DNA of 42,658 nt from a virus. The stretch covers positions 1-42,658 of IMG/VR virus record IMGVR_UViG_3300044611_001113. One strand, given 5' to 3'. Shown one piece after another: positions 19,567 to 23,730 of this stretch. The first letter of the stretch is position 1, and the number at the start of each line of letters is the position of its first letter. Made by a program: the position numbers and the translations under genes. Below the pieces are notes generated by a model, which saw only the letters and a program-made list of their open reading frames with translations, was not told where the DNA came from and did no database searches.

Positions 19567-19707
19567 ATGGGGGCAACTAAACAACAACAACTTGAGGAGA
19601 TGGAGATGGAAATTGAACGGATGAACGCGGAAGCCCGTGAGGCGGGTTTTCAAGATCACGCAGAAAACGAAGCCTATTGGGCCGCAATGAACGAGGAGAC
19701 ACTATGA
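19567..19707 (+). CDS. 46-residue acidic helical peptide
   Basis: Begins MGATKQQQLEEMEMEIERMNAE, a single Glu/Met-rich helix likely to form a coiled coil, then EAGFQDHAENEAYWAAMNEE. The stop overlaps the start of the ParB-methyltransferase gene (ATGA), which supports it as a real gene. Function unknown. Confidence 0.65.
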   Translation: MGATKQQQLEEMEMEIERMNAEAREAGFQDHAENEAYWAAMNEETL

Positions 19708-21206
19708 TTACAAACATACAAATATCGAAACTTAAACCGCATCCTAAAAATCCCCGCTTAGTTATGAGGGAGGATGTCATTGAAAGCATTAAGGCCGGAT
19801 TGTCTGGCGGCTTTCACCCTTCATACGCTCTTCAAGTCTGGCCGCAGGGCGATGACTTTCTAATTCTCTCAGGCCACCACCGCACAGAAGGCGCAAGGCG
19901 GGCAGGGATTGACGAACTCCCTTGCTTCGTGCGTGAAGACTTGGACGAGGACGAGGCTTATATGGTGCTCGCCACGGCCAACGCTCAAGGCGAACTCTCA
20001 CCGCTGGAGATCGGGATGCACGCACTGCATTATGTGGAGAAGGCCACAGGTGGGCGAGGGCAGAAAGGCGGTCTGTCTGCTTATGCGGAGGCTATTGGAA
20101 AAGATAAGGGAAGAATTAGCCGATTAAGAGACGCTGCGGAGGTTGTAAACTGTTGCGGTAACGCAACGGTTTTATTGCAACGAGCAGAACACCTCGCCGC
20201 GATCCACAAACTCCCGGAGGAGGCGTGGGGCGTGGCGGTCGAAGCAATGCTCAAGCAGGAGCTTTCGGCCAAGGACACCGCAAAAGCGGTGGAGGATGCT
20301 ATCGAGGCCGCGAGCGAAATACCGAGATCACAGGTTGAGCGGCTCCACGGCGTAGAGGTCCGCGTGATGGCTGGCAAGGTCCGCCGCAAAGGCGTGCGCG
20401 ACCTTGTGGCAATCCTATCCGAAATCGACGCCCTTGAAGAACAGGTAATTGACGGAGAGCTAACGCACGAACTGAATCCGCCGGCAGACTGGTGGGATAT
20501 TCGTGAGGTCAGCGAATACAGAGACGAGATGGCCGCAGTTGTGGCCGAAGCCATGGCGCTCAGGCCGACCGTTTACCGCACTGATGCGCTGTCTCTACTC
20601 TCAACGCTCGAGGACGGCAGCATCGATCTGATCATCACCGACCCACCTTATGCGACCGACATTGAAGACATCGCCGCATTTGCCAAGTCATGGGTGCCGG
20701 TTGCCATGAAGAAACTGGCAAAGACGGGCCGCGCATACATCTGCACCGGAGCATATCCGGCAGAGTTGGCCGCCTATGCCACGGAGTTGCTGGCTATCGA
20801 TGGGCTGAAAGTCGGCGTGCCATTGGTCTGGACATACAACAATACGATCGGCCCCGCACCAACGCATGACTACAAAACAAACTGGCAGTCAATTTGGCAT
20901 GTTTACAAGGAGGACGCGCCACCAATCAACTCGCCTCTCCTGACCGAGAAAAACACCGTCCACACGATCAGCGCACCGGATGGACGGCACGATGGCAGGC
21001 TTCACGCTTGGCAGAAGCCAGATGAGTTGGCGCAGATGCTTATCCGCCATGCGATGGCAAAGCCTGGGGCCACTGTTGTGGATCCATTTTCTGGCACAGG
21101 GACTTTTCTCGTTGCCGCATCAAAGGCCGGTCACAAGGCCATTGGCTCAGAAGTCTCCGAGGACATGATCAAAATACAAGCTGGGAGGGGAATCCGCCAT
21201 GAGTGA
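19704..21206 (+). CDS. ParB-domain / DNA methyltransferase fusion
   Basis: 500 residues from ATG 19704 (ATGA overlap). Residues 1-~150 are a ParB/Srx-type domain (LKPHPKNPR, LSGHHRTEGARRAG at 56-68, then a helix-turn-helix-like GKDKGRISRLRDAAE). Residues ~290-500 are an amino-methyltransferase: DPPY at 313-316 and the SAM-binding DPFSGTGT near 460, an order typical of the beta class (N6-adenine or N4-cytosine). The ParB part probably binds DNA or nucleotide; the target is unknown. ParB-methylase fusions are known in phages and mobile elements. A GTTGCG-GTAA-CGCAAC hairpin lies inside the gene near 20152. Confidence 0.88.
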   Translation: MITNIQISKLKPHPKNPRLVMREDVIESIKAGLSGGFHPSYALQVWPQGDDFLILSGHHRTEGARRAGIDELPCFVREDLDEDEAYMVLATANAQGELSPLEIGMHALHYVEKATGGRGQKGGLSAYAEAIGKDKGRISRLRDAAEVVNCCGNATVLLQRAEHLAAIHKLPEEAWGVAVEAMLKQELSAKDTAKAVEDAIEAASEIPRSQVERLHGVEVRVMAGKVRRKGVRDLVAILSEIDALEEQVIDGELTHELNPPADWWDIREVSEYRDEMAAVVAEAMALRPTVYRTDALSLLSTLEDGSIDLIITDPPYATDIEDIAAFAKSWVPVAMKKLAKTGRAYICTGAYPAELAAYATELLAIDGLKVGVPLVWTYNNTIGPAPTHDYKTNWQSIWHVYKEDAPPINSPLLTEKNTVHTISAPDGRHDGRLHAWQKPDELAQMLIRHAMAKPGATVVDPFSGTGTFLVAASKAGHKAIGSEVSEDMIKIQAGRGIRHE

Positions 21207-21774
21207 TTTTGAACAGGATGCAAAGTGGTCAGAAAATACACTAAATCAAATCGTTTGGCCTGCAATAAAAAAAGCCGTAGGGGGAAGCCTTATATCGGTG
21301 GAAGGAGACGGCAGCAACATAGCCAGACAAATTGACATAAGCTCTGGCATTGATGCGTTTATTAAGAGCGAGCAAGGCATCAAGTCGGTTGCAAGCAGGG
21401 TTCAGCGATGCAGCGCCTCTAAGCCGTGGAATACCTTCACGATTAGGGCGGCCCGAAACACCGGAGCAAAGACTGAATGGGAGAAGCGGTGCAACTCCAT
21501 ACAGAACAACGATTCGATTTATCCAATGATGACCATGCAAGCCTATGTTTCTGACCCAAACGACAGCTTTGCATCTGCCGCAATAATAAAGACGGATCAC
21601 TTGTATCAGTATGCCATTGCAGAGCTTGAGCGTTTAAAAATGAAAAGAACATCAAACGCAGTTTTTTACATCGTGGAGTGGTCAAAGTTAATGGACTGGA
21701 TCGTCTCAAAAAACATCCGCTCAAGCATGTATATTTTTAACAAACAAATGGCGTTTAACGAGGCTGTTAATTAA
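21199..21774 (+). CDS. Unknown protein after the methyltransferase, possible nuclease-like fold
   Basis: 191 residues, start overlapping the methyltransferase end by 8 bases. ARQIDISSGIDAFI (about 42-55), VASRVQR (about 64-70) and WNTFTIRAARN (about 76-86) give a D...D...(R)xQ...R layout that recalls divergent PD-(D/E)XK folds, with a helical C-terminal half containing FYIVEWSKLMDW. I do not recognise a named family. Being next to a methyltransferase, a restriction-like or protective role is thinkable but unproven. Composition is more AT-rich than its neighbours. Confidence 0.6.
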   Translation: MSDFEQDAKWSENTLNQIVWPAIKKAVGGSLISVEGDGSNIARQIDISSGIDAFIKSEQGIKSVASRVQRCSASKPWNTFTIRAARNTGAKTEWEKRCNSIQNNDSIYPMMTMQAYVSDPNDSFASAAIIKTDHLYQYAIAELERLKMKRTSNAVFYIVEWSKLMDWIVSKNIRSSMYIFNKQMAFNEAVN

Positions 21775-22166: not shown

Positions 22167-22394
22167 ATGTATACCCGCCGATTGCTCTGCGCGATGATCC
22201 GCCAAGCCGTGTTCGACGCCAAGAACGACCGCGAATATGTGACGGCCGACAACCAAAGCGAACGCGAGCGCAACCAGCGGACGGCCATCGATTTTCTGAA
22301 TTCTGAATTTTACAAAGACCTTTGTAAAGCGCTCGGCGACTGCTCAGGCATCGGGCTGCCTGCGGACAAAATCAAATTGGAGGCGCTGAAATAA
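22167..22394 (+). CDS. Small phage protein, unknown function
   Basis: 75 residues from ATG 22167. An in-frame extension upstream would overlap the zinc-finger gene completely and looks non-coding. LCAMIRQAVFDAKNDREY...ERERNQRTAIDFLNSEFYKDLCKALG is a helical pattern often seen in small phage proteins next to replication genes (A-DFL-S--F---C---G). Its stop TAA shares a base with an ATG at 22394, and the methyltransferase starts at GTG 22396. Confidence 0.65.
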   Translation: MYTRRLLCAMIRQAVFDAKNDREYVTADNQSERERNQRTAIDFLNSEFYKDLCKALGDCSGIGLPADKIKLEALK

Positions 22395-23713
22395 TGTGGA
22401 TACTCCCAAAACAATTACACACCTCGGACTTTGTGCCGGATACGGCGGCATTGAGCTTGGACTCCACCGAGTTATCCGAAATCTGCGCACGGTCGCTCTT
22501 TGTGAGGTCGAAGCCTTCTGCTGCGCGAATTTGGTCGCAAAAATGGAAGCGGGACTCATGGACGCAGCACCTATCTGGACGGATCTTAAATCCTTCCCAT
22601 GGGCAGACTTTCGTGACCGCGTGGACATCCTCACTGGGGGCTATCCCTGCCAGCCCTTCAGCGCAGCCGGAAAGCGCCTCGGCACAGACGACCCTCGCCA
22701 CCTCTGGCCGTTTATCGCAGACGGAATTCGGATTCTGCGACCCAAGCTCTGCTTCTTTGAGAATGTGGAAGGCCACATCAGCCTCGGACTCCGAGAAGTC
22801 ATTGGAGAGCTGGAATCAATCGGTTACCAGACGGCGTGGGGAATATTCAGCGCGGCTGAAGTCGGCGCACCGCACCAGCGCAAGCGGGTCTTCATCTTGG
22901 CCGTCTCCAATAGCCTCGGAGGTGCGGCAGGGCTTTCAAGATCGCTCGCGTGGAATGAAAGGTTCGCAGGAGTCTCTGACAACGGTGGTGGTAAAGGATG
23001 CGGCGAATTGGCCGACAGCTACAGCGACCAACCGAGTGCGGAACGAGGAGACGCTGGCAAAGTGCGCGGCCTTTCGGAAGCGCAACGCCAACCAGAACAC
23101 GGTGCCGCTGTATTTGGAGGAGGTTGTCTTGCGGGAGGAACAGCATGGCCAAGCCGCCCCGGCCAACCCCAGCACGGATGGGAGCCGCCAAGAGTCGTGG
23201 GCAACGCCAGAGTGCAAGAACCATGTCGGCTACCAAGTGGATGCGACAGGATCGATGTGGCCACGACTTGGGAGTCAAGTGGCACAATGGGCAACGCCAA
23301 ACACTATGGATTGTCTTCCGAGCAGATCATACGAAGCGATGAAGCGACAAGCCACGAATGGGCAAAGAAAGAATCGCACCAAGCCAGGCAACTTGAGGGA
23401 GCAGATCGACCCATTGATGTGCCAAGCATACAAGGATGCGCAAGCGCAAGCGAATCAATGGGGAACGCCCACAGCCCGCGACCACAAGAGCGGCAGGGGC
23501 AACGAGGAGCGGGAATACAAGGAATTGACTCCGATGGTGGAGAGGACGCAGACGGGAAAGCTCAACCCGCGCTGGGTCGAGACGCTGATGGGCTTGCCGG
23601 TGGGCTGGGTTATGCCGAGCTGTGCGTCTCCTGTGACAATCGAACAGACGAACTGCGCCTCCTCGGCAACGGAGTCGTGCCTGCAACAGCCGAGCGAGCT
23701 TTTAGAATTTTAA
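22394..23713 (+). CDS. Out-of-frame overlapping gene with methyltransferase-associated WPTP repeats
   Basis: A 439-residue reading from ATG 22394, in the +1 frame of the cytosine methyltransferase and open along almost its whole length. It is not a plain shadow. From 22898 on it holds five W-[PAG]-[ST] units (WPSPIAS, WPTATAT, WATPECK, WATPNTMD, WGTPTARDHKSG) and then LNPRWVETLMGLPVGWV (23561-23611), which I recognise as the target-recognition/C-terminal sequence style of another group of phage cytosine methyltransferases and associated proteins. Whether it is translated on its own, reached by frameshifting or kept only as a relic cannot be told from the sequence. Confidence 0.5.
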   Translation: MWILPKQLHTSDFVPDTAALSLDSTELSEICARSLFVRSKPSAARIWSQKWKRDSWTQHLSGRILNPSHGQTFVTAWTSSLGAIPASPSAQPESASAQTTLATSGRLSQTEFGFCDPSSASLRMWKATSASDSEKSLESWNQSVTRRRGEYSARLKSAHRTSASGSSSWPSPIASEVRQGFQDRSRGMKGSQESLTTVVVKDAANWPTATATNRVRNEETLAKCAAFRKRNANQNTVPLYLEEVVLREEQHGQAAPANPSTDGSRQESWATPECKNHVGYQVDATGSMWPRLGSQVAQWATPNTMDCLPSRSYEAMKRQATNGQRKNRTKPGNLREQIDPLMCQAYKDAQAQANQWGTPTARDHKSGRGNEEREYKELTPMVERTQTGKLNPRWVETLMGLPVGWVMPSCASPVTIEQTNCASSATESCLQQPSELLEF

Positions 23714-23730
23714 TGGAGGAACTTATTTAA
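22396..23730 (+). CDS. dcm: DNA (cytosine-5) methyltransferase
   Basis: 444 residues from GTG 22396. C5-methyltransferase motifs are in order: I (GLCAGYGGIELGL, 11-23), IV (GGYPCQPFSAAGKR, 81-94, catalytic Cys85), VI (FENV, 121-124), VIII (QRKRVFI, 161-167) and, after ~250 residues of target-recognition region, IX/X (ELRLLGNGVVPATAERAF) near the end. It methylates cytosine at an unknown site, probably to protect phage DNA from host restriction. The recognition region contains repeated [LMV][AG]xA/S-type units (LAVSNS, LADSYS, VGNARV, MGNAKH, MGNAHS), which correspond base for base to the WPTP-like units of the overlapping frame. Confidence 0.9.
   Translation: MDTPKTITHLGLCAGYGGIELGLHRVIRNLRTVALCEVEAFCCANLVAKMEAGLMDAAPIWTDLKSFPWADFRDRVDILTGGYPCQPFSAAGKRLGTDDPRHLWPFIADGIRILRPKLCFFENVEGHISLGLREVIGELESIGYQTAWGIFSAAEVGAPHQRKRVFILAVSNSLGGAAGLSRSLAWNERFAGVSDNGGGKGCGELADSYSDQPSAERGDAGKVRGLSEAQRQPEHGAAVFGGGCLAGGTAWPSRPGQPQHGWEPPRVVGNARVQEPCRLPSGCDRIDVATTWESSGTMGNAKHYGLSSEQIIRSDEATSHEWAKKESHQARQLEGADRPIDVPSIQGCASASESMGNAHSPRPQERQGQRGAGIQGIDSDGGEDADGKAQPALGRDADGLAGGLGYAELCVSCDNRTDELRLLGNGVVPATAERAFRILMEELI

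Follow-up and report, generated by a model that had tools for sequence, protein, structure and literature searches.

A phage locus with two overlapping reading frames that probably encode the catalytic and the recognition subunit of one cytosine-C5 DNA methyltransferase

The gene for the large subunit of the C5 methyltransferase M.EcoHK31I (YGGCCR) also contains, in another reading frame, the coding sequence of the small subunit. In multispecific methyltransferases of Bacillus phages (M.SPRI, M.Phi3TI type), variable tandem recognition units are combined with one catalytic core. M.EcoHK31I is naturally split: its large subunit carries motifs I to VIII and X, its small subunit motif IX (PMC3404938; see also PMC3439449), and the predicted recognition domain is located on the large subunit (PMC3404938). 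M.AquI (CYCGRG) is another split enzyme, in which motifs IX and X are present on the smaller subunit, and fragments of C5 methyltransferases can reassemble into an active enzyme (PMC3404938).

Long same-strand overlapping genes of prokaryotes are usually written off as annotation noise. The phage locus described here offers an overlap of ~1.3 kb, comparative evidence for each of the two frames, and a simple logic, i.e. one enzyme in two subunits. It shares the motif split with M.EcoHK31I, since motifs I, IV, VI, VIII, and X are found in one frame (A) and motif IX in the other (B), and it shares the use of overlapping frames.

The locus and its two open frames

The window, i.e. the whole stretch of DNA that was analysed, is a virus record of 42.7 kb. 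The initial annotation had described two overlapping ORFs and five W-[PAG]-[ST] units; both ORFs were found with the claimed boundaries and lengths and all five units could be located (Table 1). The third frame contains 17 stops across the same stretch. The exact position of the candidate Shine-Dalgarno sequence GGAGG varies and is not kept among relatives. A gene for a ParB/N6-methyltransferase fusion is located 5′ of the dual-frame gene, and 3′ of it follow genes for a DnaB-like helicase, a terminase, and a portal protein. The upstream fusion (window 19677-21206) consists of a weak ParB N-terminal match and an N6/N4 DNA methyltransferase domain; fusions of the ParB/methyltransferase type are known from phage ParB-terminase loci (PMC6536676). 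Between both methyltransferase genes lies a 191-aa ORF (window 21199-21774) with no Pfam match. The nearest cellular relatives stem mainly from Verrucomicrobiota assemblies, which hints at a possible host.

Table 1. Features of the dual-frame locus (positions in the window)
Feature	Position	Strand	Sequence or remarks
Frame A ORF	22396..23730	+	GTG start, 444 aa; probable catalytic subunit with motifs I, IV, VI, VIII, X
Frame B ORF	22394..23713	+	ATG start, 439 aa, +1 frame; proposed recognition subunit with W-x-T-P cassettes and motif IX
Twin start ATGTG	22394..22398	+	frame B ATG 22394, frame A GTG 22396
GGAGG	22379..22383	+	candidate Shine-Dalgarno sequence common to the A and B starts
N-terminal segment, frame B (residues 1-80)	22394..22633	+	MWILPKQL..; constrained in B; four predicted helices at 24-80
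Motif I, frame A	22420..22464	+	HLGLCAGYGGIELGL
Motif IV with catalytic Cys, frame A	22636..22671	+	GGYPCQPFSAAG; constrained in A only
Motif VI, frame A	22753..22776	+	FFENVEGH
Predicted helix preceding the cassette array, frame B (residues 134-163)	22793..22882	+	pLDDT up to 93; locked silent sites at A codons 143, 153
Motif VIII, frame A	22864..22899	+	GAPHQRKRVFIL
Cassette array, five W-[PAG]-[ST] units, frame B	22898..23560	+	unit starts 22898, 23009, 23198, 23288, 23459
Element within the cassette region, frame A	23143..23199	+	AWPSRPGQPQHGWEPPRVV; conserved as A protein, 63 distinct copies
Motif IX, frame B	23561..23611	+	LNPRWVETLMGLPVGWV; ahead of motif X; entropy 0.9-1.2 at A codon position 1 (= B position 3), near 0 at positions 2 and 3
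Motif X, frame A	23659..23703	+	LLGNGVVPATAERAF; entropy ~1.3 at A codon position 3, near 0 at positions 1 and 2

Residues 10-174 of frame A match Pfam family PF00145 (E 5e-32), which covers only the first 174 residues of the protein; A further corresponds to phrog_363 (E 7e-57), and its PDB matches are M.HhaI and M.HaeIII. The catalytic motifs I, IV (PCQ), VI (ENV), and VIII of C5 cytosine methyltransferases are all present in A. The initial annotation had credited this frame with all core motifs, but motif IX is missing from A in the window and was found in B; the same distribution, with IX in B and X in A, was observed in relatives with twin starts, so that the core polypeptide does not carry both IX and X.

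Frame B showed no match to a Pfam or NCBIfam family and, by sequence, none to a solved structure. It corresponds to phrog_1008, "DNA methyltransferase" (E 3e-18). In a tblastn search, B matched a gene of phage C75C1 over its full length, in a frame other than that of the annotated methyltransferase, and B homologues are present in many viral contigs. AlphaFold predicted helices with moderate confidence at residues 24-37, 43-53, 55-63, and 67-80; the predicted helices at 24-80 and 134-163 sit near constrained patches, and residues 82-125 are of low confidence. The model of B alone was poor (mean pLDDT 52) and had no fold match in the PDB, and position, motif IX, and cassette variability are therefore the grounds for assigning a recognition domain to B. 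By these features, B is most likely the DNA-recognition half. As motif IX is present in B and otherwise absent, B is probably a subunit rather than a spare copy.

Open frames and frame-specific constraint among relatives

A scan of IMG/VR with the core of A yielded at least 597 relatives, of which the best 80 were kept. The layout was analysed in 78 viral loci with both ORFs measurable, the window included; similarity to the window and to a small number of selected relatives guided the choice of these loci, and the sampling is skewed towards the queries. The distance from the frame B ATG to the A start downstream is 2, 5, or 8 nt in all 78 loci, which gives three arrangements. Frame A comprises 314-632 aa, and frame B is open almost to the A stop in nearly all loci. 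Opposite the catalytic core (codons 2-169), not a single B stop was present in the 78 loci, compared to 2.4 expected per locus after synonymous shuffling of A, and the remainder of B was free of stops in 76 of the 78 (2.6 expected per locus by the same shuffle). Conversely, frame A had no stop across the cassette region in 76/76 loci, with 5.7 expected per locus after synonymous shuffling of B. The loci are related and not phylogenetically independent, and these stop counts are therefore not independent trials. In the third frame, which served as a control, 6.8 stops were observed versus 6.3 expected. Base composition as the cause of the open frames was ruled out by the shuffles and the control frame.

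Constraint alternates between the frames along the gene, with motif IX conserved in B and motif X in A. Around motif IX, codon position 1 of A, which is the silent position of B, varies freely, and positions 2 and 3 are fixed. Within the first 169 codons, silent sites of A are locked in codons 1-8, 25-64, and parts of 137-160, whereas codons 81-120 vary freely. The mean entropy of A-fourfold sites was 0.20 in codons 33-64 versus 1.29 in codons 81-120, and codons 25-64 differed from codons 81-120 with a p value of 1.3e-4 (Mann-Whitney). A-fourfold sites are locked where B is invariant in 68/68 sequences; for example, the codon of A Gly53 always ends in A and that of Pro59 always in T, and B has an invariant Asp and Leu at these places. 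The fourfold divergence of close pairs was 0-5% in codons 1-80 and 3-24% in codons 81-136, compared to 16-31% in the neighbouring helicase gene.

The frame A counterparts of the five W units are, in order, LAVS, LADS, VGNA, MGNA, and MGNA. The initial annotation had regarded this unit-by-unit coincidence as evidence; the pairing exists, but TGG-CCN/GCN-ACN-CCN invariably yields [LMV]-[AG]-[DNHY]-[ASTP] when the reading begins one base earlier. The LADS/WPTP coincidence was rejected as evidence per se, as such a codon-phase shadow carries no information alone. It thus proves nothing about dual coding, which is instead supported by the conservation of the B reading. Divergence within cassettes was 0.058, 0.046, and 0.235 at the three codon positions of B. 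Judged from the sequences, B is the selected frame of the cassette region, apart from one element of A with the consensus WPSRPGxPQHxWEPPRVV. One Ser of this element is kept in 62 of 63 copies, yet all three positions of its codon vary, which means that both Ser codon families are used.

Each locus contains 0-9 cassette units, and the 342 units in total fall into 135 groups, whose order differs between the phages sharing them. Phages with helicases that are 90-98% identical bear different cassette arrays. This variation may mirror a changing target specificity driven by restriction pressure.

At the level of sequence, the comparisons demonstrate dual coding, a complementary spread of the conserved motifs, selection on each frame, and the maintenance of both frames in an open state. 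The initial annotation had left two options, genuine dual coding and a switch of frame during evolution, and had named two outcomes that would speak against its proposal, a lack of second-frame homologues and constraint in the GTG frame only. Homologues of the second frame were found in phage C75C1 and viral contigs, and constraint was detected in frame B also. True dual coding is borne out by frame-specific constraint in homologues, conserved twin starts, and stop avoidance in both frames. Frame switching occurs as well: seven of the related loci have motif X transferred to B, and six carry motif IX in the catalytic ORF. The dual-frame observation is real and stronger than had been supposed.

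Rearrangements among relatives and competing explanations

Natural rearrangements reveal where each frame must stay open. Motifs VIII and IX were located in 138 loci by regular expressions, which missed a few loci. Relative to the core, 132 of these loci had motif IX in the +1 frame and the other 6 had it in the same frame; a +2 position did not occur. Among the 132 loci with IX in +1, motif X was present in A in 117 and in B in 7, and was not found in 8. In L109, L141, L142, and L213, all with X in B, the first stop of A follows 6-8 codons past motif VIII, and A contains 6-18 stops before motif IX, whereas the X-in-A loci that could be scored have zero A stops. Similarly, relatives with an internal B start show 2-6 B stops over the core, and twin-start relatives show none. 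These results suggest that, in the loci scored, each frame is open wherever its own ribosomes must pass. In L040 and L044 motif X is in B yet A is still open, as expected after a recent move of motif X.

Further irregularities were observed in individual relatives. The A frames of L040 (491-1519) and L044 (3001-4008), whose motif X has been transferred to frame B, terminate in a Cys-rich tail, CECCDDVICWKCGGHYADCPC. Apparent frame shifts in L111 (2311-3242) and L128 (2209-3362), judged against close relatives, place motif IX within the upstream ORF and X in a different frame; they could be real or sequencing errors. L069 (1259-1911) and L081 (1992-2644) carry an HNH-endonuclease-like sequence, CLKCG...HHKDRN...CASCHTRLH, in frame B behind a B stop, and frame A crosses this stretch in another frame and continues to motif X. 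Not all of the five loci whose catalytic ORF contains both IX and X (L148 and L156 are one contig) are simple fusions: L148, L157, and L226 retain the first cassettes in B, and L196 retains all recognised cassettes there. For L157, in which IX, core, and X form one chain, a complete C5 methyltransferase fold was predicted (pTM 0.77), which matches M.HhaI with a Z score of 23 over the whole chain, the cassette part being of low confidence.

The best explanation of the locus, which we hold with high though not full confidence, is that two almost fully overlapping same-strand genes, translated from start codons two bases apart, encode a catalytic subunit (A) and a recognition/motif IX subunit (B) of one methyltransferase. 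Protein A would provide AdoMet binding, catalysis, and motif X of a cytosine-C5 DNA methyltransferase, and protein B the variable recognition cassettes and motif IX. Both would be made as separate polypeptides, and by analogy to M.EcoHK31I we infer that they assemble into one active enzyme, to which B contributes the shuffled recognition cassettes. Where it lies opposite the cassettes, A would act chiefly as an open linker leading to motif X, and B, where it lies opposite motifs IV-VI, chiefly as an open lead-in. Each W-x-T-P cassette may be a swappable target-recognition unit, in which case the phage DNA might be protected with changing, possibly multiple specificity.

Alternatively, programmed ribosomal frameshifting might join the parts, with a start in A, a +1 shift into B for recognition and motif IX, and a return to A for motif X. 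The conserved parts read A-B-A give the normal order of a C5 methyltransferase, and some relatives do carry motif IX within the catalytic ORF. However, two shifts in opposite directions would be required, and this mechanism needs neither an A frame open across the cassettes, as seen in 76/76 loci (5.7 stops expected each), nor an open and constrained B over the core with a conserved start, which is seen too. Moreover, A closes at once where X moved to B, as predicted for separate chains. That, in the loci scored, the frames are open where their own ribosomes would have to pass is the main argument from sequence for two polypeptides, and we consider frameshifting unlikely.

We give a slightly lower chance to the possibility that B, although produced alongside A, does not belong to this enzyme and acts, for example, as an independent regulator or anti-restriction protein. 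The constrained N-terminal segment of B, which is not obviously part of a methyltransferase, would fit such a function, but A is without motif IX and B supplies it, and IX, cassettes, and X swap frames like parts of one enzyme. It is very improbable that only A is translated and that B is open through composition and an echo of A conservation. The sequence is GC-rich, B has no Pfam or NCBIfam match, and part of its N-terminal conservation must echo A; this reading is nevertheless contradicted by constraint at A-silent sites, by B-dominant constraint at motif IX and the cassettes, by the conserved B start, and by a control frame at expectation. Least credible of all is that B-type coding alone is ancestral and that A reads through the cassettes owing to a recent frameshift accident in this phage. 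Moves between frames are indeed seen among relatives (L040, L044, L111, L128), but 117 of 138 loci, and an E. coli phage as well, share the A layout that includes motif X.

Breadth of the layout and comparison with described systems

Most relatives examined show the same two-frame layout, and databases usually list one gene. In Paenibacillus Fernvirus phages, e.g. in the pair BLOOM_56/BLOOM_57 of phage Bloom, two CDS overlap with the same A/+1 relation and both are annotated as DNA cytosine methyltransferase; unlike in the window, the B start is internal, 202 nt downstream of the A start, and stops interrupt the B frame ahead of it. The A/+1 relation is also present in Lactobacillus phage Lc-Nu, with A as the sole annotated frame at this site, and in the unannotated record of Escherichia phage BEU35. 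The usual placement of motif IX, within frame A, was seen in some of the other phage C5 methyltransferases sampled, for instance those of Streptococcus phage Javan349 and Coprococcus phage NatCom_22372. Gordonia phage Neville gp75 (L237:1786-2649) has an IX-like segment and X in A, and a cassette-like LFPTPRSADA followed by a stop in +1, possibly a remnant of a frame change.

It appears reasonably likely, with less certainty than attaches to the two-subunit explanation of the locus itself, that a large family of dsDNA phages uses two frames of one DNA stretch to encode both methyltransferase subunits. In this clade the overlap would be near full length with twin starts, the cassettes would recombine between phages with both frames kept open, and motifs IX and X would move between the proteins. 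Many single-gene annotations of phage methyltransferases may cover only half of the enzyme, which would matter for one-frame cloning or recoding, and repeated [LMV]-[AG]-[DN]-[ASTP] in the variable region of a methyltransferase can be used as a marker of a hidden second frame. The proposal is testable in the relatives from E. coli, Lactobacillus, and Paenibacillus phages. Our search, which covered the open literature, found no dual-frame C5 methyltransferases of phages.

Among described enzymes of the single-chain type, those of the M.SPRI/M.Phi3TI type contain units of another kind. Mycobacterium phage Ramsey gp69 resembles the window locus in motifs IV and VIII, repeated L/W-P-T-P units, an IX-like segment, and X, but it is a true single chain in a single frame, and its +1 frame has stops. 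In contrast to M.AquI, the window locus has motif X on A rather than together with IX on the second subunit, and its genes overlap over their whole length. The IX + X division of M.AquI recurs in L109, L141, L142, and L213 and, by motif position, in Mycobacterium phage Shaka gp77/gp76 and Streptomyces phage Lilbooboo 32/33, in which two genes overlap shortly and the second carries IX and a C-terminal GN motif. The window locus differs from M.EcoHK31I in that the cassettes, with their proposed recognition role, are located in B and not in the larger subunit, and in its full-length B (439 aa), twin start, repeated cassette array, and presence in a phage. Split C5 methyltransferases thus have precedent; the full-length overlap, the twin starts, the cassette array in B, and the motifs that move between frames set this locus apart as a new form.
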